From an uncultured Caryophanales bacterium (GTDB lineage Bacteria; Bacillota_I; Bacilli_A; RF39; UBA660), in contig CAMOWA010000009.1 of NCBI GenBank assembly GCA_946628005.1, positions 1-50,122 on the forward strand: DNA of 50,122 bases, read 5' to 3'. Positions 11,795 through 38,976 of this stretch are shown in pieces. The first letter of the stretch is position 1. Each line of letters begins with the position of its first letter. The notes under the pieces are model-generated. The model did not search any database, was not told where the DNA came from, and saw only the letters and a list, made by a program, of their open reading frames with translations. The position numbers and the translations under genes are program-made.

Positions 11795-12181
11795 CTATTT
11801 AAATAAATTTTTAAATTCTTCTAACGTATATATTTTATCCTCATTTTTATATTTTACATAAGAGTTTGCGTTATTCTTTTCTGCTATTTCAATTATTTTA
11901 TTTTTTTTCTTTATTTTTCCTTTTTTTACTATTTTTTCTTGCCAGTCTCCACTATCATAACCTTGATAACTACTGATTGTATTTATATATTTATAAGTAT
12001 ATTTTTTTCCTTTTTTCTTTTCATAATAATATGTAGTATATACTACTTCACCAGATTCTCCTTTAAATATAATTTTATAATTATCTGGGATTGTATTATT
12101 TTTATATGTTACTGTTGTTAAGATAAATATTTCTACTATAATAAATAATACTATTCCTACTACTATAGATACTTTTTTCAT
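11795..12181 (-). CDS. hypothetical membrane-anchored protein
   Basis: A 128-residue protein with one N-terminal hydrophobic segment (about 5-24) and a basic, Lys/Tyr-rich exterior domain (YTTYYYEKKKGKKYTYKY, later KKGKIKKKNK). There is no lipobox and no known family. The ATG at 12181 has AAGGGTGAT upstream; a GTG nine bases earlier is less well placed. It ends 16 bases before the acyltransferase start and is probably in the same transcript. Confidence 0.5.
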   Translation of the reverse strand: MKKVSIVVGIVLFIIVEIFILTTVTYKNNTIPDNYKIIFKGESGEVVYTTYYYEKKKGKKYTYKYINTISSYQGYDSGDWQEKIVKKGKIKKKNKIIEIAEKNNANSYVKYKNEDKIYTLEEFKNLFK

Positions 12182-25565: not shown

Positions 25566-26536
25566 TTATAATTCATTTATAATTAATTCTTGTCCTACAG
25601 ATAATAGATTGTTTTCTATATTATTTATTCGTTTTAATTCACTTACTTCCATATTAAACTTCTTTGCTATTGACCATAATGTATCTCCTTTTTGAACAAT
25701 ATATATACTATAATCTTTACTTGTTTTTGGTACTAGTAATTTTTGATTAATTTGTAAAGTTAAATCTTTTAAATTATTTATTTTAATTAATTCTGGAACA
25801 GATATATTATTATCTCTTGCTATTTTCCATAAGCTATCTCCTTTTTGAACATCATAAATATCATATTCTTCTTCTAAAATAGGTTCTTCTTTATTTCCAT
25901 TACTTTTATTTGGTATTAATAATACTTGCCCAATGCTTAATATATTTCCAGTCAAGTTATTTTCTTTTATTATATCATCTACTTCAATATTTAAACTTTT
26001 TGCAATTGAATACAGAGTGTCTCCTTTTTTTACTGTGTATATATTGTTATCATTATTTTGTTCAATATTAGTAAGATATATTTTTTCTCCTTCTGATATA
26101 TTATTTCCGTATAAATTATTAATTTTTTTTAGACTATCAATACTTATGTTAAATCTTTTAGATATTGAGTACAGAGTGTCTCCTTTTTTTACAATATAAT
26201 AATCTTTTGCTTCACTTTCATTATTTTGGCCAGGTAAGAAGTAGTTATATCCAAGATATTCTGCAATTGCCTTTACTACTCCTTCTGCATAGTTGTCTAA
26301 ATAATTATTTAGTTTATTAGCATCTTTAGTATTATCTATAAAACCATATTCTATTAGAACCGGTTCAACATCTCCAGATTCTCTTAAAATGTAATAATAG
26401 TCTTTATTTGGATTCTCTGGTAATCTTCTTTGATATGTTTTTCTTTTTATTTGTCCTGCATTTCCTATATTTTCTAATATTAAGTCTGCTAATGCTGAAT
26501 TATTTTTTAAAGAATAAACTACTTCTGCACCTTCGG
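25566..26536 (-). pseudogene. 3' part of an N-acetylmuramoyl-L-alanine amidase with four LysM repeats
   Basis: This frame has no start of its own and begins directly at the integrated element. It reads GAEVVYSLKNNSALADL, then YQRRLPENPNKDYYYIL and EPVLIEYGF, the second half of an Amidase_3 zinc amidase including the catalytic Glu. Four LysM modules follow, each starting like YIVKKGDTLYSIS or YDVQKGDSLWKIA, which bind peptidoglycan. The missing first half, with the zinc ligands, is at 33246-33563. Joined at the 6-bp core, the two parts make one 414-codon gene. Translation of this part alone is unlikely; a TTG at 25955 would give LysM modules only. Confidence 0.85.
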
Positions 26537-26542
26537 CACCTC
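26537..26542. repeat. left attachment core CACCTC
   Basis: Crossover core at the left end of the element; reads GAGGTG on the coding strand of the amidase. It contains a GA dinucleotide, as used by TnpX/TndX-type recombinases. The exact crossover bases within it cannot be fixed from one sequence. Confidence 0.75.
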
Positions 26543-26565
26543 GTGACGGCTCTAGTGGTTATCAT

Positions 26566-27114
26566 TTATTTAGTTTTTATTCTTTTCTCATCTAATTCAT
26601 TAATATAATTGTTAAATTCTTTAAATGATAGATTAGGTTCAACTTCAAAAAACTCAGTTATTGGTCTTGATTTACCCTCAGCCATTTTTACATAATAATC
26701 ATTTATTTCATTAATAGCCTTTTCCTCATTTTCAAATTCATATATTCCAGCTTTCTCCCAATTTGGATGTTCTATTTGGTAAACCTTATCATTTAAATAA
26801 TATAATACAAAGCAATGCATATGTTCTTCTGCTTCTAAATTATTAAAGTCTTTACCCTCATATACTCTTGTACAAAACATTTTATTTTTAATGTTTAATC
26901 TATCTAATAATTTGCTCATTAAATATACTTGTTCAATACATGTTCCAATTCCGTGTTCTAATGTTTCTTCAATACTAGAAGTTCTATATAGTTTTCTAAA
27001 ATTTTTCATGTTTCCAATATGTTCTTCGTTATTTATATCTAGCCAACCATATTTTATATTATCTTTCATAAATTCTAATATATCTTCGGAAGTTTTTATT
27101 TCTTCTATCGTCAT
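26566..27114 (-). CDS. transglutaminase-like domain protein, element cargo
   Basis: A 182-residue soluble protein of the transglutaminase-like (cysteine protease fold) superfamily. The candidate catalytic Cys is in HGIGTCIEQVYLMSKLL, the His in EEHMHCFVLY, and the acidic/Asn position in IEHPNWEKAG. There is no signal peptide. It begins 25 bases after the recombinase stop and ends 24 bases from the left attachment core, so it is element cargo, probably co-transcribed with the recombinase. The reaction could be peptide cleavage, cross-linking or acyl transfer. AGAGGTGAC precedes the ATG. Confidence 0.7.
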   Translation of the reverse strand: MTIEEIKTSEDILEFMKDNIKYGWLDINNEEHIGNMKNFRKLYRTSSIEETLEHGIGTCIEQVYLMSKLLDRLNIKNKMFCTRVYEGKDFNNLEAEEHMHCFVLYYLNDKVYQIEHPNWEKAGIYEFENEEKAINEINDYYVKMAEGKSRPITEFFEVEPNLSFKEFNNYINELDEKRIKTK

Positions 27115-27139
27115 AAAGTCACCTCTTAACTAAGAACTA

Positions 27140-28810
27140 TTATACACTTTTCTTAGTTTGTTTACCATGCCTGCCATATGGATTTCTAATTGGATTTTTA
27201 TCAACATATTTAAAAGTATAATTATCTAGTATTTTATATTTAAATTTAATTGTTATATTTCTATCTTCATCTGCTTCTATTCTATCTATTATGGTAAATA
27301 ACAAGTCTCTATTTGGTTTTTCTATATTTAATAATTCTTTTATCTTTTTAGTATAATTTGGTATTTTATTAGCACTATTTTTTCTTTTTAAAATTTCAAG
27401 TTCTATTTCTTCTAATTTTTCTTTTAAATTTCTCATTTTTTGTTCGTAAGGAGATACTATTATTTTGTATGAATCTAAAGAAATATTACCATCAATTCTA
27501 TCTTGATATACTGTTTGAATATTTGAATATAATTTTAATATATCTTTTTCTATATCTTTCTTTATGTCGTCAAGTGATTTAGTACCTGAATTAGTTCTAT
27601 TAGTTATTTCTTCATTTAATTCTTTAATACTCAATCCTTTAAATAAATCAGATAATAATTTATTTAATTCTTCTAATACTTCTTCTTCAAAATAATTATA
27701 AGGAAAGAAATGAGCCTTACATCTTCCTCTAATTGGGTCTCTTGCATATCTATTACAATTAATAGTCCAATAGTCATGATTTTTTCTATATATTACACCT
27801 AATCTATTTCCACACTCTTTGCAATAGATTAATCCCTCTAATAATCTAGTTGGTCTTTGAGTTTTAACTTCAACTTTTCTATTATGATTATCTCTTTTCT
27901 TATTAATTATTCTAAATGTCTCTTTATCTACTAATGGTTCATGAGTATTCTTTACTATTACCCATAAGCTTTGATCAAGTGTTATTTTCTTTTTAGATTT
28001 ATAACTAATATTAGTTTGAGTATGTTGTACCATATCACCAGTATACATTCTATTTTGTAATATTTTTTTAACTGAATGTATTGTCCATATATCTTTTCCT
28101 TTTACTCTTGAAGATATTGGTAAATTTTTATAAGCACTTGGTGTTGGTGCTCTTAATTTAGTAAGACGAGTTGCTATTTCAGATATACCTATATCATTTG
28201 CTCTCCATTCAAACATTTGCTTAACATAAGGTGCTATATTAGGGTCTATAATTAAATGCCCTTTATCTTCTGGGTCTCTCATATAACCATAACATGGTTT
28301 ACTACCTATAAATTTACCATCTTTTCTTTTAGAATCTAATACATTTCTTATTTTTAATGAGTTTTGTTTACTATAATAATCATTACATGCAATAATAAAT
28401 GTTGATGAATCATTACTTGCTTGATTTTTCATACTATCATAGTTTTCAACAATCGATATAAATCTTACTTTATTTTCAGGGAAATATGTTTCAATATAAT
28501 AACCAGTCATTACATGATCTCGACCTAATCTAGATAAATCTTTTACTACTACAAGATTTATCTTTTTATTTTTTATATCTTCAATCATTCTCATAAATCC
28601 TGGTCTATCAAAGTTAGTTCCTGAATAGCCATCGTCTACATACTCATCTATTAAATTAAATCCATTTTTTAAACAATAGTCTCTTAATATTTCTTTTTGA
28701 TTAGTAACACTTTCACTATCTGACTCATATTTTTTATCTTTATCTTCTTGAGAAAGTCTAATATAAATACCTGCATTATAATTCATATTTGTTAAGTAAC
28801 TATAATTCAT
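27140..28810 (-). CDS. large serine recombinase of the element
   Basis: A 556-residue recombinase of the TndX/TnpX-like large serine group. The N-terminal catalytic domain (about 12-160) has GIYIRLSQED with nucleophile Ser20, YVDDGYSGTNFDRPGF, and VVKDLSRLGRDH with the catalytic arginines. A recombinase domain (about 165-290) follows, then a zinc ribbon (GLIYCKECGNRLG .. INCNRYARDPIRGRCKAHFF), a coiled-coil-rich tail (about 395-500) and a basic end (GRHGKQTKKSV). It is full length and intact. AGGAGG precedes the ATG. It should catalyse both integration and, with a directionality factor, excision of the element around it. Confidence 0.93.
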   Translation of the reverse strand: MNYSYLTNMNYNAGIYIRLSQEDKDKKYESDSESVTNQKEILRDYCLKNGFNLIDEYVDDGYSGTNFDRPGFMRMIEDIKNKKINLVVVKDLSRLGRDHVMTGYYIETYFPENKVRFISIVENYDSMKNQASNDSSTFIIACNDYYSKQNSLKIRNVLDSKRKDGKFIGSKPCYGYMRDPEDKGHLIIDPNIAPYVKQMFEWRANDIGISEIATRLTKLRAPTPSAYKNLPISSRVKGKDIWTIHSVKKILQNRMYTGDMVQHTQTNISYKSKKKITLDQSLWVIVKNTHEPLVDKETFRIINKKRDNHNRKVEVKTQRPTRLLEGLIYCKECGNRLGVIYRKNHDYWTINCNRYARDPIRGRCKAHFFPYNYFEEEVLEELNKLLSDLFKGLSIKELNEEITNRTNSGTKSLDDIKKDIEKDILKLYSNIQTVYQDRIDGNISLDSYKIIVSPYEQKMRNLKEKLEEIELEILKRKNSANKIPNYTKKIKELLNIEKPNRDLLFTIIDRIEADEDRNITIKFKYKILDNYTFKYVDKNPIRNPYGRHGKQTKKSV

Positions 28811-28825
28811 CTTCTACCTCCTCAT

Positions 28826-28858
28826 TTTATAGCACTTAACTTTCTTCGAGACAAGTGC
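28826..28858 (-). promoter_or_regulatory. recombinase promoter overlapped by a dyad
   Basis: On the minus strand TTGTCT (28849-28854) and TATAAA (28826-28831) are 17 bases apart, just ahead of the recombinase ribosome site. GCACTT (28832-28837) and AAGTGC (28853-28858) are perfect inverted arms that fill the spacer and overlap the -35, a good place for a repressor. Confidence 0.6.
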
Positions 28859-28897
28859 ATCTTACCATGATAAATAAAAATAAGCAAATCATTAGAA

Positions 28898-29011
28898 TTA
28901 TTTTTCTTCTTTAATTTGCTTTAATAAATAATTAATTATCAATTCTTTAAAAATATCTTTTTTATCTTCCTTCATAGTTAAATTTATGTCTAAAGTAAAA
29001 CTATTATGCAC
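28898..29011 (-). CDS. small ORF upstream of the recombinase, possible directionality factor
   Basis: A 37-residue frame from a GTG at 29011 that has GGTGGTGAT five bases upstream. The product is HNSFTLDINLTMKEDKKD followed by an amphipathic helix (IFKELIINYLLKQIKEEK). Small ORFs in this position are common beside large serine recombinases. It is too short for a family assignment. A different frame opening with ATG-GGT-GGT stops after seven codons and contains the ribosome site. Confidence 0.4.
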   Translation of the reverse strand: MHNSFTLDINLTMKEDKKDIFKELIINYLLKQIKEEK

Positions 29012-29048
29012 TTGAATCACCACCCATTATTTTTATTTGCACAACAAA

Positions 29049-29081
29049 AAATCCAAATAATTCTAATATTAATTGGATTTA
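29049..29081 (-). terminator. second hairpin downstream of the kinase gene
   Basis: AAATCCAA / TTGGATTT arms with a T run on the minus strand. It would stop leftward transcription before the recombinase region. Confidence 0.45.
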
Positions 29082-29251
29082 TATTGAACCTCTGGCATTT
29101 TATTACATCTTAGCACAAAAAATGTGGATAACATGGTTTATTTTGTAGAAGTTTTGTGTGGATTTTGTGTAAAAAAAATGACACCACTATAAAAAATACT
29201 AATTTCCCACAAGCATTTATATTTTATTGTTTTGGGAGCTAGGGAGCACAT

Positions 29252-29274
29252 AAAAAAGCGGTGTTATACCACTT
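29252..29274 (-). terminator. terminator of the ligase-kinase operon
   Basis: On the minus strand AAGTGGTA and CACCGCTT pair (with one G-U) around a short loop, followed by T6. It lies 29 bases after the kinase stop. Confidence 0.55.
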
Positions 29275-29302
29275 ATTTAATTTTAAAAACATATTCATTT
29301 CA

Positions 29303-31243
29303 CTAAAAATTTGAAGTAGAAAATATAATATCTAATTTTTCTTTTATTTGATCTTTACTAAATGGTTTAGCAATATAATCAACAAATCCTTCGCTTAAAT
29401 ATTTTTCTTTAGCTCCTGCAACTGCATCAGCTGTTAAAGCTATTGTTGGAATATTGAAGTTTGGATTTTCTTTTAATTTGGCCATTGCTGTTTCACCACT
29501 CATATTAGGCATCATGATATCCATTAAGATTAAATCATATTCATTACCATTTACTACATGATTTAAACATTCTTGTCCATCATAGCATTCTTCTATTTCA
29601 AAATTGAAATCTTGTAATGCCCTACGAGCAACTTTTATATTCAATTCATTATCATCAACTATTAATATCTTCTTATTATCAAAATTACTTGATGCACTAT
29701 TAACAACAGTTTGTTCTACAACAGGTTTAGGTTGTGTCATAACAACTTCTTGTATTGGCTGTTCTACAACTTGTTGTTGAATTGCTTGTCTAATTGGTGT
29801 AATATCTATTTTTACAGTTTGATCTGGATTAACCATTTGACTAATCTTTTGTGGAAGTTGTACAACAAACATAGATCCTTGTCCAAATTGTGATTGAACA
29901 TTAATCTTACCACCCATCATTTCAACTAATGCTTTTGTTATTGCAAGTCCTAATCCTGTACCTTCTGCTGTAGTATTTTTCTCTATATCTAATCTTTCAA
30001 ACTTAGTAAATAGTTTATTTATATTTTCGGCTTTAATACCTCTACCAGTATCTCTTACACTAATTATCAAATTACTTATATTATCTTTATTGATACACTT
30101 TACACTTAATTCTATTTCACCTTGCTCAGTATATTTAATTGCGTTAGTAAGCAAATTATTAACTATTTCTTTGATGTGAGTTTTATCCCCAATAAGTTCA
30201 TAAGGAATATCAGGTGCTAAATTAATTCTAAAATTAATATTCTTTTCACCAATTCTTGTTGCATCTATTCTAGCTAGTGATTCTATTTCTTCTTTAAAAT
30301 TATATTTAACTTCAGTTATCTCCATTTTATTTGCTTCAATTTTATTAATATCTAAGATATTACCTACTATTTCTAGTAATGTTTTAGATGCTTCCATAAT
30401 ATAGTTTGCATCCTCTACTATTTCAGGATCAACAATATCTTTATGGCTTTGAATATCTTCTGAAAACCCTACTATTGCATTTAAAGGTGTTCTAATTTCA
30501 TGACTCATGCTTGATAAGAAATCAGATTTAGCTCTATTTGCTTTTTCAGCCTGTTCCTTTGCTAATTCAACTTGCTTTAATAATTTTACATCAGGATTTT
30601 CAATAGTAAAATACATAAGTATTACTGCAATTGCATGGGATGGAACAATAAATAAGAATTCATGGTAAAAATATTGAATAACTATTGATATAACACCTAA
30701 AATCATACAAATAATCATAGGCAATGATTCTTTTGATTTTATTTTTTTGATATTCATAACACCAAATACTCCGATAACCGACATTCCTAATGTTACAATT
30801 ATATATTGTAAAAATGTCCCTATACCACCTGGGTAATAATAAGTATTAGTTATGGTATAATCTATTGGTAAAATTATACTTAATAAGAAAAATATAATAT
30901 AAAATACTGTTATAATGTTAAAAGCTTTTTTTATTTTACTATCATCTATTTTGTCTTTAAAAAATATAATAAAATTATATTTAACAAAGTAATACATCCA
31001 AAAAACATAATAAACATACAACGTTTTTGTAAGAATTATTAATACGTTTGAAGCTATATTAATATGATTAGTTATTAGAAAATATATTATTGCTTCTAAT
31101 AATAGACCAAAGGCAGTGACGCCAATTTGTCTTTTGAAAATGTTATTCTCAATAGTATTAATTTTTGGTTTTGAAAAATATACTAAAACTATTATAGTTA
31201 ATACTATTAAAAATGTTGTACATATTCCTACATTAACTATCAC
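29303..31243 (-). CDS. membrane hybrid histidine kinase with receiver domain, element cargo
   Basis: A 646-residue sensor. Residues 1-215 form about seven membrane helices acting as the sensor; ligand unknown. A short helix (220-240) leads to a HisKA domain with phosphorylated H248 ([10 protein letters not shown]), then a HATPase with [18 protein letters not shown] and [13 protein letters not shown] Gln/Val/Pro linker (about 470-520) connects to a receiver domain ending at 640 with acidic pair VDDNE, phosphorylated D575 (LILMDIMMP) and Lys in AKPFSK. There is no output or HPt domain, so it must signal to another protein. It starts at a GTG with AAGGTGATATA upstream, four bases after the ligase stop, so the two genes form one operon. 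Confidence 0.9.
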
Positions 31244-31247
31244 TATA

Positions 31248-33152
31248 TCACCTTCTTATCTTTATATCATCTGTATTTACAATATTTTTTACATCTTCCT
31301 TAAATACTATAGTTTTTTCTGGTTCTCTATCTGGATAATAATTTATATGATAAAAAAGATTTTCATCTAATGGTGCATAATAATCAACATTATCAGCTTT
31401 TAATTTCTTGAAATCTCTTTTTCCAGTAACTTCACTAGATTCAAATTTACTATATACTTTTATAGAATCTAGGTTATATTTTTTACATAATAATTCAACT
31501 ATTTCATCTTCTCTACCAATAAATTCATTTTTAGGAACTACCTGTCCAACTATATAGTTTTTTCCGTTACCATCTTGGAATCTAGAAATTTCCCATTCTA
31601 TAATTGGGTCTTCAGCTTCTAAAGAATATTCTATATCGAACAAATAAATAGTATTTCCATTTTCATCAACAAATGAATCATCAGCTCTTCCAAGAATATT
31701 GTATGATCCGTCTTTATTTTTAACAGCAATATCGCCGGTTACTCCCCAACGAGTTCCATTTTCATCATAATACCAACGTTTAGCAGTTGCTTCAGGGTTA
31801 TCTAAATATCTATCTGCTGCTGCTGCACTTGAAACATGTAAGAATCCTCTTTCTCCATCTTTAACAAGATTGCCATCATTATCCACTATCTTTGCTATAA
31901 TTCCAGGTTCAACTGGATGCCCTGTTTCATTTGTTTTAGTTTTTTCATCCATAAAATAACTACAAATAGTACTTGAACCATCTTCAGCAGCTCCACCACC
32001 GATAGAAAATCTTACTTTACATCCGTTCATCTTTAACCATTCATCAATTAGTTTAACATTACTTTTTGTAACAGGTTCTCCTCCAGAACTAGGTCTGGTT
32101 ACATTTTCAAATGCATTAGGAGCAATTAAACCTTGTGCAACTCCAGCTGTATAAAAACTTGGAGCAGCAGTAATCCAATTACATTTAGATTCTGCTAAAT
32201 CTTTACCAAATGTATCTTTATTATAAATTGGCTGTGGAACCATTGTTTTTCCACGAGCTAATTGTAAGTATCCACAAAATCTTTCACCTGTTGCATGAGT
32301 TAATGGAATAACTTGGAAACATCTTTCCCCAACATAGTCTTTTGTATTTACTCCTTTATGTAGTTCTATTAATGCGTTAGCAGATGACTCTTTAAATACA
32401 ATACACTTGGGGGCTCCAGTTGTACCACTTGTATATGAATAACTAACATCTCTATCAATATCAACTGGACCGCTTGAAAGTGGAGTTTTATCTTTTTTAC
32501 CAACTTCTATTATTTCCTGCATTTTGATGAAATTAACATTTCTCATTTTTCCCATTTTCTTTATAGCATCACGTTGTTTTTCGAAGTCACAAAAAATTTC
32601 TTTTAACTTCGGTGGTAAACTTGATAAATCTAGAAATATTCCTTTTTTATCTTCAGGCAAATAATCATTAAGATCTGTGATTATAACATTTTTTATGCCA
32701 CAAGGTTCTAAGTAATCAATTACAAATGGTAAATATGCATCCAATATGATTAAAGTTTTTGAACCTTTCATTTCAGTATATGTTTTAAAATCATTTCTTA
32801 AAAATAAGAAATTAGGACTATTTTGTATATTACCCAATTTATTTACTGCAAATAAAGAAAGATTATTTTCAGTAGATACTGGCATACATAAAGTTATAAC
32901 ATCATCATTAGAAATACCAACTGATTTCAAACCATTAACATATTCTTGGATTCTTTCTGGTAGTTCTCCAAATGTTATTACATTACCATAATAATCAATA
33001 GCTGGAATGTTTGGTATATTCTTAGTCCATGATATTATATTATCTAAAATACTCATATTATATATATCAATATTATTAATTGTTTTTACTACTTTCGCCC
33101 AACTTGGAAGTTCTCTCTTTAATTCATGTGTAGGGATTTTTTTGTTTTCCAT
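31248..33152 (-). CDS. AMP-forming acyl/aryl-CoA synthetase-like ligase, element cargo
   Basis: A 634-residue protein of the adenylate-forming (ANL) superfamily. The phosphate loop is [15 protein letters not shown], the acid-binding region has [15 protein letters not shown], then SSGGEPVT, the adenosine motif [21 protein letters not shown], and the hinge [23 protein letters not shown]. The C-terminal lobe carries [16 protein letters not shown] and a catalytic-type Lys in [11 protein letters not shown]. Such enzymes activate a carboxylic acid with ATP; the acid is unknown here. GGTGATTAT precedes the ATG. It is first in an operon with the hybrid kinase and may make or consume the signal that kinase senses; that link is inference. 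Confidence 0.85.
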
Positions 33153-33172
33153 ATAATCACCAACTTATACCT

Positions 33173-33178
33173 ATTATA
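33173..33178 (-). promoter_or_regulatory. candidate -10 of the ligase-kinase operon
   Basis: TATAAT on the minus strand about 20 bases ahead of the ligase start. The -35 region is A-rich and unrecognisable. Confidence 0.35.
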
Positions 33179-33245
33179 TCATTTTTTTTACATTTTTTTA
33201 TTTTTTTAGGTATATTTCTTTTTAAAATTATATTAAATGCTTAAT

Positions 33246-33563
33246 TTATTGTAAAGCCTCGAAGAAAGCTAATTTACCACTAGGGTTATCACCACCTCCT
33301 GCGTTTATGTGATTGGATATTAATAATATGTTTTTATTTGGATTTTCATTTACTATTTTATTTATTCTATTTATACGATCTGTTTTAGGAAGATATTCAT
33401 CTGATTCTCTTAATAAAATTGCTGGTATACTTAATTCTTTTAATCGATTATAAATATAACTTGCAGCTTTTAAATTTAGATTTTTTTCTTGCAATCCATT
33501 TCCTACTGCTCCACTATCTATTCCTCCATGACCAGCATCTACAATTATTAAATTATTATTCAT
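33246..33563 (-). pseudogene. 5' part of the interrupted N-acetylmuramoyl-L-alanine amidase
   Basis: A 105-codon truncated Amidase_3. IVDAGHGGIDSGAVG gives zinc His12, QEKNLNLKAA the zinc Glu26, and ISNHINAGG the zinc His85. Right after Gly90 the sequence leaves the family: 15 further codons (..DNPSGKLAFFEALQ) come from the element and end at TAA. The catalytic Glu and all wall-binding modules are on the far side of the element, so the truncated product should be inactive. AGGTGAT precedes the ATG. No signal peptide is present in this form or in the restored gene. Confidence 0.85.
33293..33298. repeat. right attachment core CACCTC
   Basis: Direct copy of the left core, falling in the same codon phase of the amidase (GA-GGT-G), which is why excision keeps the frame. 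Confidence 0.75.
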
Positions 33564-33606
33564 GTAATCACCTATAATAATTTATGCAATAATTGTTTTT
33601 GTTCTA

Positions 33607-35892: not shown

Positions 35893-37179
35893 CTAAAGCT
35901 TAATTAAATCTTTATCTTTTCTTCCTACTCCTATATAAGCTACTTTTTCTTTTGTTTCTTTTTCAATGTATTTTATATAATCTTTTAAAGATTGAGGAAT
36001 ATTATTCTTATTTATATTATCAATGTTTCCCCATCCTTTGAATTCCTTGTAGTGTGGTTTTAATCTTTTTAATACTTCTACATCATCAGGCATTATATAT
36101 ATTTTTTCTTTTTTATCATTTAGATAATAATCACATACTTTTACTATTTCTAAATCTTGCATAATGTCTAATTTATTTAATATTAATTTGGCATTTTTGT
36201 GTCCTAGTAATGATTTCTTTAAAGTTGGTAAATCAAACCAGCCAAGTCTTCTTTTCATATTTTCAGCATCATCAACTTCTGAATTATATTTATATAATTT
36301 GTTTGCATCATCTTTTTTCATTTCCGTTAGAAATGGTCTTTTATTTAAACAACAAAAATAGCCAGTAATTATAACGTACATTTCGTTTAAATAACAAGGA
36401 CTGATATTTGCTCCATTTAGTAGTGAATTAATACTGGTTGAAGCACTTGTTGTAAAGGGATTAAGTCCATGTAAATTATCTAACATTATACCATTACAGC
36501 CTTCAATAAGTATATTTGACTTAGTTTCTATGTTATATAAGAAATTACTATAATCTTTGCAAAATTTTCCTATTAGTTTTTCTATTTTTTTATAATCTTC
36601 TAAAAGATTTTTAGCTTCTAATGTAAAATACTCTTCATCTTTATCTTGATAGAATGAATTATCTAGTTCATAACAAGATTCTTTAATTTTATTTACTAAT
36701 GTTTCAATAGTCATAACTTTATTAATTGTATTTTGAACATCCATTAGTTTAATAGAATGTCTTGCATCTCTAGCAATTATAGCGTTTCCTGTTCCTTGAT
36801 TTGTGCTACCATATTTTTTTGAATGATTTTGTTTTTTATTTCGGTCGATATAAGGATTTATCAATAAACTAATACTAGAAGCTATTGTTACTTTGTTATA
36901 GATTTTATCTAAGTCATTTCTACTCTCTAGTTCTAATCTTAAAGCATGCAAATTTAATACTGCTCCTGGGGCTACTACAAACCTAACATTATCTTTGTCA
37001 AATACGGAAGGTAATTGTTTTGTCACAAATTGTTTGCCATTTTCTAAGATGACTGTATGTGAAGCATTAGTAGATGCATTAACTCTAAATATATAATCAT
37101 AATTCTTACCTAAATTAGAAACCACTTTTCCCTTTCCTTCATCCCCATATAGTCCTCCAACTATTACATCAACTTTCAT
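35893..37179 (-). CDS. divergent adenylosuccinate synthetase paralogue
   Basis: A 428-residue PurA homologue beside canonical PurA. Kept: the P-loop [13 protein letters not shown] with catalytic Asp, a His in NASHTVIL (canonical NNAGHT), and NKLD near 330, which resembles the guanine-recognition motif. Changed: the TTTxRxRR loop that binds aspartate is replaced by VDDAENMKRRLGWFD, GTTxRGIGP by GSTNQGTGN, and [12 protein letters not shown] by GCN..LNPFTTSAST. So it probably still uses GTP but with another amino acid, another nucleotide, or as a partner of PurA. PurZ of phages that make 2-aminoadenine is a known precedent for PurA divergence, but this protein keeps the catalytic Asp. AAAAGGAG precedes the ATG. 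Confidence 0.7.
   Translation of the reverse strand: MKVDVIVGGLYGDEGKGKVVSNLGKNYDYIFRVNASTNASHTVILENGKQFVTKQLPSVFDKDNVRFVVAPGAVLNLHALRLELESRNDLDKIYNKVTIASSISLLINPYIDRNKKQNHSKKYGSTNQGTGNAIIARDARHSIKLMDVQNTINKVMTIETLVNKIKESCYELDNSFYQDKDEEYFTLEAKNLLEDYKKIEKLIGKFCKDYSNFLYNIETKSNILIEGCNGIMLDNLHGLNPFTTSASTSINSLLNGANISPCYLNEMYVIITGYFCCLNKRPFLTEMKKDDANKLYKYNSEVDDAENMKRRLGWFDLPTLKKSLLGHKNAKLILNKLDIMQDLEIVKVCDYYLNDKKEKIYIMPDDVEVLKRLKPHYKEFKGWGNIDNINKNNIPQSLKDYIKYIEKETKEKVAYIGVGRKDKDLIKL

Positions 37180-37201: not shown

Positions 37202-38976
<1,775 letters not shown>

Follow-up and report, generated by a model that had tools for sequence, protein, structure and literature searches.

Can an amidase gene that is split by a mobile element be given back to its cell, or is it lost? 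The question is raised by a stretch of 50,122 nucleotides from an uncultured Caryophanales bacterium (GTDB lineage RF39; UBA660; contig CAMOWA010000009.1), here called the window. On its minus strand lie both parts of a gene for an Amidase_3 domain with four LysM modules, separated by a 6,756-bp element that encodes a serine recombinase. The initial annotation held that precise excision of the element, in the manner of skin, would restore the reading frame, and that the element may be a reversible switch on the hydrolase rather than the mark of a dead gene. Our comparison of the locus with its relatives suggests that the element is probably an intervening element of the skin/gin type, which would be excised in the mother cell during sporulation.

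The junctions were analysed first with the sequence of the window. Both parts of the gene matched the Amidase_3 profile (PF01520) above the gathering score of 27, the 5′ part with 67.3 bits over profile positions 1-91 and the 3′ part with 36.8 bits over positions 85-173 (Pfam), and four LysM stretches were detected in the 3′ part. The hexamer CACCTC, which reads GAGGTG on the strand of the gene, was found at both junctions (33293-33298 and 26537-26542) with a spacing of 6,756 bp and in the same codon phase. Since another copy lies within the element (27120) and the window has 8 copies, both strands counted, the hexamer alone is weak proof. When the flanks were joined, a frame of 1,242 nt was obtained that has no internal stop and encodes 413 amino acids plus stop. 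This confirms that the element splits the amidase and that its precise removal restores the frame, with the parts at the positions, on the strand and in the phase first proposed; the 414 codons given earlier for the joined gene include the stop. A search of the window's genome with the amidase as query returned no further match besides the two parts. The joined ends of the element form a dyad-symmetric attachment site (attP). The dyad is centred two bases 5′ of the codon boundary in 12 of 13 complete elements, with 13-18 of 24 positions matching, a figure that stands without a shuffle control.

The relatives served as natural controls. In a genus set of 39 draft genomes, one of them the window's own, 26 gave an amidase match. 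It is in one piece across the junction in 16 of the 39 genomes, which answers the earlier question of an uninterrupted gene at this site. Eight genomes, the window's among them, have both parts with the break after codon 90, either on one contig (G000, G014, G015, G035 and G038) or on two (G013, G022 and G030). Solely the 5′ part was found in G005, and G028 has one contig with an empty site and another that begins at the crossover. In the uninterrupted genes the frame crosses the junction point with no additional bases; the junction is above chance because the frame of these relatives passes the same codon. The aligned junctions of the genus showed an identical break and element ends of several kinds. 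The initial annotation had expected GAGGTG at this position in intact amidases. Among 13 intact genus relatives, the junction DNA has GAGGTG in 3, GG(A/T)GG(A/T/G)G in 5 more and a more divergent sequence in the other 5. The expectation failed for the strict hexamer, absent from 10 of the 13, and held for the looser site, present in 8, which leaves no clear refutation. Judged from these alignments, what is conserved at the site is not the exact hexamer.

The use of the site was then followed over recombinase loci. Species genomes were scanned with a recombinase alignment and the best 80 of the loci listed were kept. Of the 36 closest among them, with identities of about 47% and above, 32 lie within or next to an amidase part that is broken at this codon, one (L094) being assigned solely via the junction motif close to a contig end. 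The contigs of L081 and L092 end too early for an assignment, L073 passes directly into another element, and L106 is located elsewhere, with an intact amidase nearby. No amidase match (E 1e-3) was obtained in the 44 less similar loci of this set (39% identity or less). In a set of 154 genomes from the family, 113 gave an amidase match. Among the 106 genomes listed, which represent nearly as many genera, 58 gave a half-length match, 59 a full one and 11 both, the 58 being an upper figure for the listed genomes. When 29 half-gene genomes were inspected, 22 had element sequence at the break and in three (G040, G145, G170) the contig ends exactly at the break. The other four were not counted as split: in G093 and G109 an intact gene is truncated by a contig end, G126 starts within the 3′ part, and G141 is divergent and apparently unsplit. 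Recombinases of the window's clade (E < 1e-200) were found in 28 of the 154 genomes, 26 of which have a listed half gene. Taken together, these comparisons support the view that the amidase site is a true attachment site that is used repeatedly.

The link of the target gene to sporulation was analysed with its upstream sequence. The gene is preceded by the box CATAAATTA, which has the form CATAnnnTA that we take to be the -10 motif of mother-cell promoters. In 25 of 25 genus genomes, split or intact, this motif lies 18-34 bases ahead of the amidase start; it was found in 7 of 498 control open reading frames (ORFs), which were mechanically called from the same DNA with the first ATG as start. 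The 26th amidase genome, G018, was left out because its upstream sequence is absent. Sigma-K promoters have a spacing of 15 +/- 1 in the data given in PMC517825. A full sigma-K promoter was rejected here, since an AC at -35 with a spacing of 15-17 was present in only 11 of the 25 upstream sequences, and only the -10 box is claimed. The spore sigma-K profile gave a strong match (E < 1e-70) in 29 of the 39 genus genomes. The amidase is present in 25 of these 29 and in 1 of the 10 others (Fisher p ~3e-5, with species treated as independent, which they are not), this one being G005 with its 5′ part alone. In the family the amidase is present in 111 of 134 sigma-positive genomes (E 1e-60) and in 2 of 20 others (p ~2e-10, species again not being independent). 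Spo0A is present in 37 of the 39 genus genomes. The amidase looks like a late mother-cell gene, and the host gut bacteria are probably spore-forming.

The protein itself was compared with known hydrolases. By eye, it begins directly with the catalytic domain and has no signal peptide, and the nearest solved structures by sequence are Amidase_3-type enzymes, e.g. Cwp6 and CwlV. With the CwlD amidase profile (TIGR02883), an intact relative from G032 scored 87.4 bits, below the curated cut-off of 221.55. CwlC is an Amidase_3 enzyme without signal peptide. CwlC and CwlH are described in the relevant part of PMC517825 as late mother-cell hydrolases that lyse the mother cell. The amidase analysed here differs from both in that its wall-binding part consists of LysM modules and that its gene is often interrupted.

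The 13 complete elements that we compared are 5.5-14.4 kb in size; of their larger proteins, only the recombinase forms a cluster with members in all 13. By eye, a sigma-A-like promoter precedes the recombinase. Upstream of the recombinase gene lies a micro-ORF that clusters with the micro-ORFs of three other elements. A profile of it was matched in 34 of 35 clade loci, at a distance of 50-115 bp upstream of the recombinase gene and with at least 28 bits, and in 7 of 31 other recombinases used as a control, all with 10 bits or less; the profile was seeded from 11 members of the same clade and is biased towards that clade. L080 gave no profile match, and L078 was excluded from the count because its recombinase starts at the contig end. 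An earlier, looser motif, found in 23 of the 35 loci and 5 of the 31 controls, was replaced by the profile. The micro-ORF is about 25-46 amino acids long by start choice, with 56 in one longest reading. CATAnnnT was found at -18 to -34 before its start in 26 of 26 loci outside the window's subclade (control 11 of 498); this count, 26 of 35 overall, uses starts chosen by the ribosome site. The micro-ORF most likely encodes the recombination directionality factor (RDF) of the element.

The condition of the gene parts was examined in the split genomes. All nine 3′ parts of the genus, from the eight split genomes and G028, are open through the LysM modules to a normal stop and have 307-332 codons. 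The 5′ parts are also open, the one of G035 being cut a second time. The median ratio of nonsynonymous to synonymous substitution rates (dN/dS) after the junction was 0.185 for split-split pairs (17), 0.196 for intact-intact pairs (116) and 0.177 for pairs across the two groups (102), a coarse test as many pairs are near saturation and share ancestry. In the closest pair, G000 and G035, the amidase parts gave 0.09-0.19 and two neighbour genes 0.09 and 0.10. In the wider set, 26 of 27 3′ parts are 254-427 codons long. Within the genus, the open parts and the dN/dS values like those of intact copies support the earlier suggestion that the gene is not dead.

We propose that a site-specific, non-phage mobile element has its integration site in a CwlC-like amidase gene that is specific to sporulation. 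During vegetative life the element would stay in place and the hydrolase would be off. As sporulation ends, the recombinase and a small directionality factor, most likely the micro-ORF product, would recombine the left and right attachment sites, attL and attR, in the mother cell. The element would leave, and the rejoined amidase may help to open the mother-cell wall. Since the mother cell dies, the loss would not be inherited and the spore would keep the element. We call it a putative, not a proven, member of the intervening elements because we infer the excision and because the control of the micro-ORF in its own subclade is unaccounted for.

Like gene-intervening elements in general, the element lies within a coding region, restores the frame on removal and has its own site-specific recombinase. 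To our knowledge, such elements are known as cases in a few cultured spore formers. The comparison that follows draws on parts of the cited papers. The gin element in gerE of Bacillus cereus is likewise non-phage, has serine recombinases and splits a sporulation gene, which the amidase probably also is; it is excised in sporulation, and its RDF GirX of 42 amino acids is matched by the small size of our micro-ORF (PMC5595907). It differs in that its target encodes a transcription factor, its length is 28.6 kb and it has three recombinase genes (PMC5595907), whereas the system of the window has an amidase as target and many diverse elements. In Clostridioides difficile, skin in sigK resembles the element in that a mother-cell gene, in our case a putative one, is restored in frame. 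There the recombinase is driven by sigma-A and the RDF CD1234 by sigma-E (PMC5025042), the arrangement that we see in the sigma-A-like recombinase promoter and, outside the window's subclade, the boxed micro-ORF. The skin element of B. subtilis also restores the frame of the mother-cell gene sigK (PMC4191935); its RDF is given as not identified in the consulted part of PMC5025042, so a small RDF is not strictly defining. SPbeta in spsM, with the RDF SprB of 58 amino acids (PMC4191935), and yin in yabG (PMC10747680) are similar in lying within a mother-cell or sporulation gene. They differ in being prophages or prophage-like and in their targets, and skin differs in being prophage-like with sigK as target. 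For skin, we know of no comparable turnover at one codon. In the open-licence literature of PubMed Central we found no report of an interrupted amidase, and the word amidase is absent from the main text, to which the check was confined, of a large serine recombinase survey (PMC10083194). The comparison suggests an element like classic skin, but in a new gene and far more frequent.

The histories of elements and hosts disagree. In G000 and G035 the recombinases have a synonymous divergence (dS) of 0.21, under half of the 0.45 and 0.50 of two flanking genes, and in the sister pairs L072/L079 and L085/L099 the shared site is occupied by recombinases that clearly differ. For these three pairs, an old element passed down vertically with its host was rejected as unsupported. 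From this discord and the dN/dS values we conclude that elements come and go over a gene that is under selection. The same turnover would be expected of an ordinary integrative element with its attachment site in a conserved, dispensable amidase gene, gained and lost by chance and with no developmental control; such an element would also fit the variable cargo, the defence-like genes in two relatives and the window's own micro-ORF, which has no mother-cell box. We consider it unlikely, given the promoter box of the target and its co-occurrence with the sigma factor, the boxed micro-ORF in all 26 other loci and gene parts that are little decayed despite frequent occupation.

Several findings weigh against an excision in the mother cell. 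CATAnnnT precedes the micro-ORF in 0 of 9 loci of the window's own subclade, the window included, and when the first possible start is used, it lies within 15-60 bases in 20 of the 35 micro-ORFs. A scan of the window's element for ORFs of at least 25 amino acids with a mother-cell box and a ribosome site gave none, and a mother-cell promoter for a small ORF inside this element was given up as a candidate. The curated sigma-K cut-off was reached in 0 of the 39 genus genomes, for which reason the matches are read as sigma-E or sigma-K. The amidase was not detectable in 4 of the 29 sigma-positive genus genomes, and a full-length copy occurs in G180, which is sigma-negative. For split loci of the wider set, the median dN/dS was higher, at 0.266 (241 pairs). 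In L090 the 3′ part stops after 123 codons and no LysM was found in it. Clearly decayed halves, which the initial annotation would have taken as evidence against a switch, were absent from the genus, but L090 may be decayed. Since the histories of recombinase and host disagree, each insertion could be recent, and the intactness of the parts is no sure sign of function.

A reversible on/off switch in growing cells, by phase variation or active lysogeny, was considered with the contig ends. Seven pieces from six genomes (G040 twice, G145, G170, G028, G035 and G022) end at most 5 bp from the crossover in a survey of 45 loci, some of which were selected because their matches ended near contig ends. 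In G035, the last 55 bases of one contig are the first 55 of another; by eye, the two diverge at the first difference between attL and the empty site. Assemblies branch at points of conflict between reads, so that more than one continuation at the crossover was probably present in the samples; excised copies, empty strains or other elements could each account for it. These ends and the empty-site contig of G028 suggest mixed states in some samples, as a switch would produce, but mixed strains or different elements would explain them equally, and the contigs of G028 also differ by substitutions. The promoter box of the target points to sporulation, and the amidase tracks the spore-sigma-like genes. 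The claim of a reversible switch is therefore unsupported and the switch very unlikely; the event expected from the mother-cell box and the sigma co-occurrence is a one-way excision in a dying cell. The programmed, skin-like excision that was also proposed remains the best reading. That the insertion inactivated a useless amidase whose parts are now decaying is hardly credible: G005, which has no strong spore-sigma match and the 5′ part alone, and the short 3′ part of L090 would fit, but the nine genus 3′ parts are open with dN/dS like intact genes.

Table 1. Features of the split amidase locus and of related sites (window coordinates unless a locus is named).
Feature	Position	Strand	Remarks
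Integrated element, 6,756 bp	26538..33293	-	cut at codon boundary; exact crossover base somewhere inside shared core
Amidase 5′ part	33294..33563	-	codons 1-90 up to crossover; break point same as in relatives
Amidase 5′ ORF	33246-33563	-	frame continues into element, then stop
Amidase 3′ part	25566..26537	-	remaining Amidase_3 and four LysM; Pfam, comparison with relatives
attL core, GAGGTG	33293..33298	-	junction sequence comparison
attR core, GAGGTG	26537..26542	-	junction sequence comparison
Sigma-E/sigma-K type -10 box CATAAATTA	33578..33586	-	upstream of amidase start
Large serine recombinase, 556 aa	27140..28810	-	Resolvase, Recombinase, Zn_ribbon_recom
Micro-ORF, candidate RDF	28898..29011	-	37 aa from this GTG; 41 aa from earlier GTG
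Cargo: transglutaminase-like protein, 182 aa	26566..27114	-	DUF553, E 2.9e-5
Cargo: hybrid histidine kinase with receiver domain, 646 aa	29303..31243	-	HisKA, HATPase_c, Response_reg
Cargo: AMP-binding (acyl-CoA ligase-like) enzyme, 634 aa	31248..33152	-	PF00501
Second attachment site, core CATGGAGG	L067 (G035 C78) ~4215; L152 ~1572-1640	L067: reverse	
AGN or AGT at crossover codons	L026, L032, L033, L038, L040		G023, G019, G008, G033, G010, respectively

A second interruption was observed in G035. The promoter and first codons of its amidase are on contig C39 and break off in a CATGGAGG core that falls on the catalytic DAG-HGG motif. On contig C78, together with another serine recombinase, is the middle piece, which begins at the CATGGAGG core and ends at the first site. 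From these junctions the amidase of G035 is in three pieces. Similar right junctions of the second site were found in L074, L075, L076 and possibly L083; the left junctions of these loci were not found. On the family scale, we see about an even chance that a split mother-cell lysis amidase is a common standing state. Many different cargo carriers, some of them with anti-phage genes, would alternate at one codon. A second codon would be used by another recombinase family in some species, so that, shortly before the cell dies, three pieces are joined through two excisions. The terminal cell would be a safe harbour, with little cost of the element to its host provided that the exit in the mother cell works.

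One gene is interrupted at one codon across a family by mutually replacing elements, with the intact relatives as natural controls. The system would allow testing of how such elements are tolerated and how directionality factors gain mother-cell control, and asking what brings mobile defence cargo into sporulation genes. In addition, it supplies combinations of recombinase, micro-ORF and attachment site for in vitro work.

At the attachment site itself, AGN or AGT was found at the crossover codons in 5 of the 16 intact genus amidases and AGG in the others; the AGN/AGT sites are possibly resistant to integration. The recombinases of the subclade L057, L058 and L074-L078 (69-72% identity to the window's) lie in the opposite orientation within the same site. 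L073 (~11880-11960) has two different elements in tandem, right end against left end, probably at the amidase site.

The cargo varies between elements. In the element of the window, no phage structural genes were found by Pfam among the four larger ORFs, which are the recombinase, the kinase, the AMP-binding enzyme and the transglutaminase-like protein, and a prophage origin was rejected. The one close relative on a viral contig, L175, has 60% identity, the other 37 loci 53% or less; L175 gave no match to either amidase part and has a VirD4/TraG-like gene, as read from its ORF list. The element of G035 also has an AMP-binding enzyme and a hybrid histidine kinase of these kinds. One may speculate that the kinase with its receiver domain is linked to sporulation signalling. 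The kinase of the window and that of L055 (2192-4156) are 94.5% identical over residues 374-646, adjoining the recombinase, and 71% identical over nearly the whole length, the elements being mosaic. The element of G038 has a cytosine methylase and an IetA/IetS-like pair, and that of L084 a type II restriction-modification pair and a Fic protein. Defence-like cargo in elements at the amidase site was located in L056 (12133-16655) and L084 (5853-9004). Elsewhere in the window, two adenylosuccinate synthetase-like genes (35893-37179 and 37202-38464) were seen by eye to lie adjacent in tandem.

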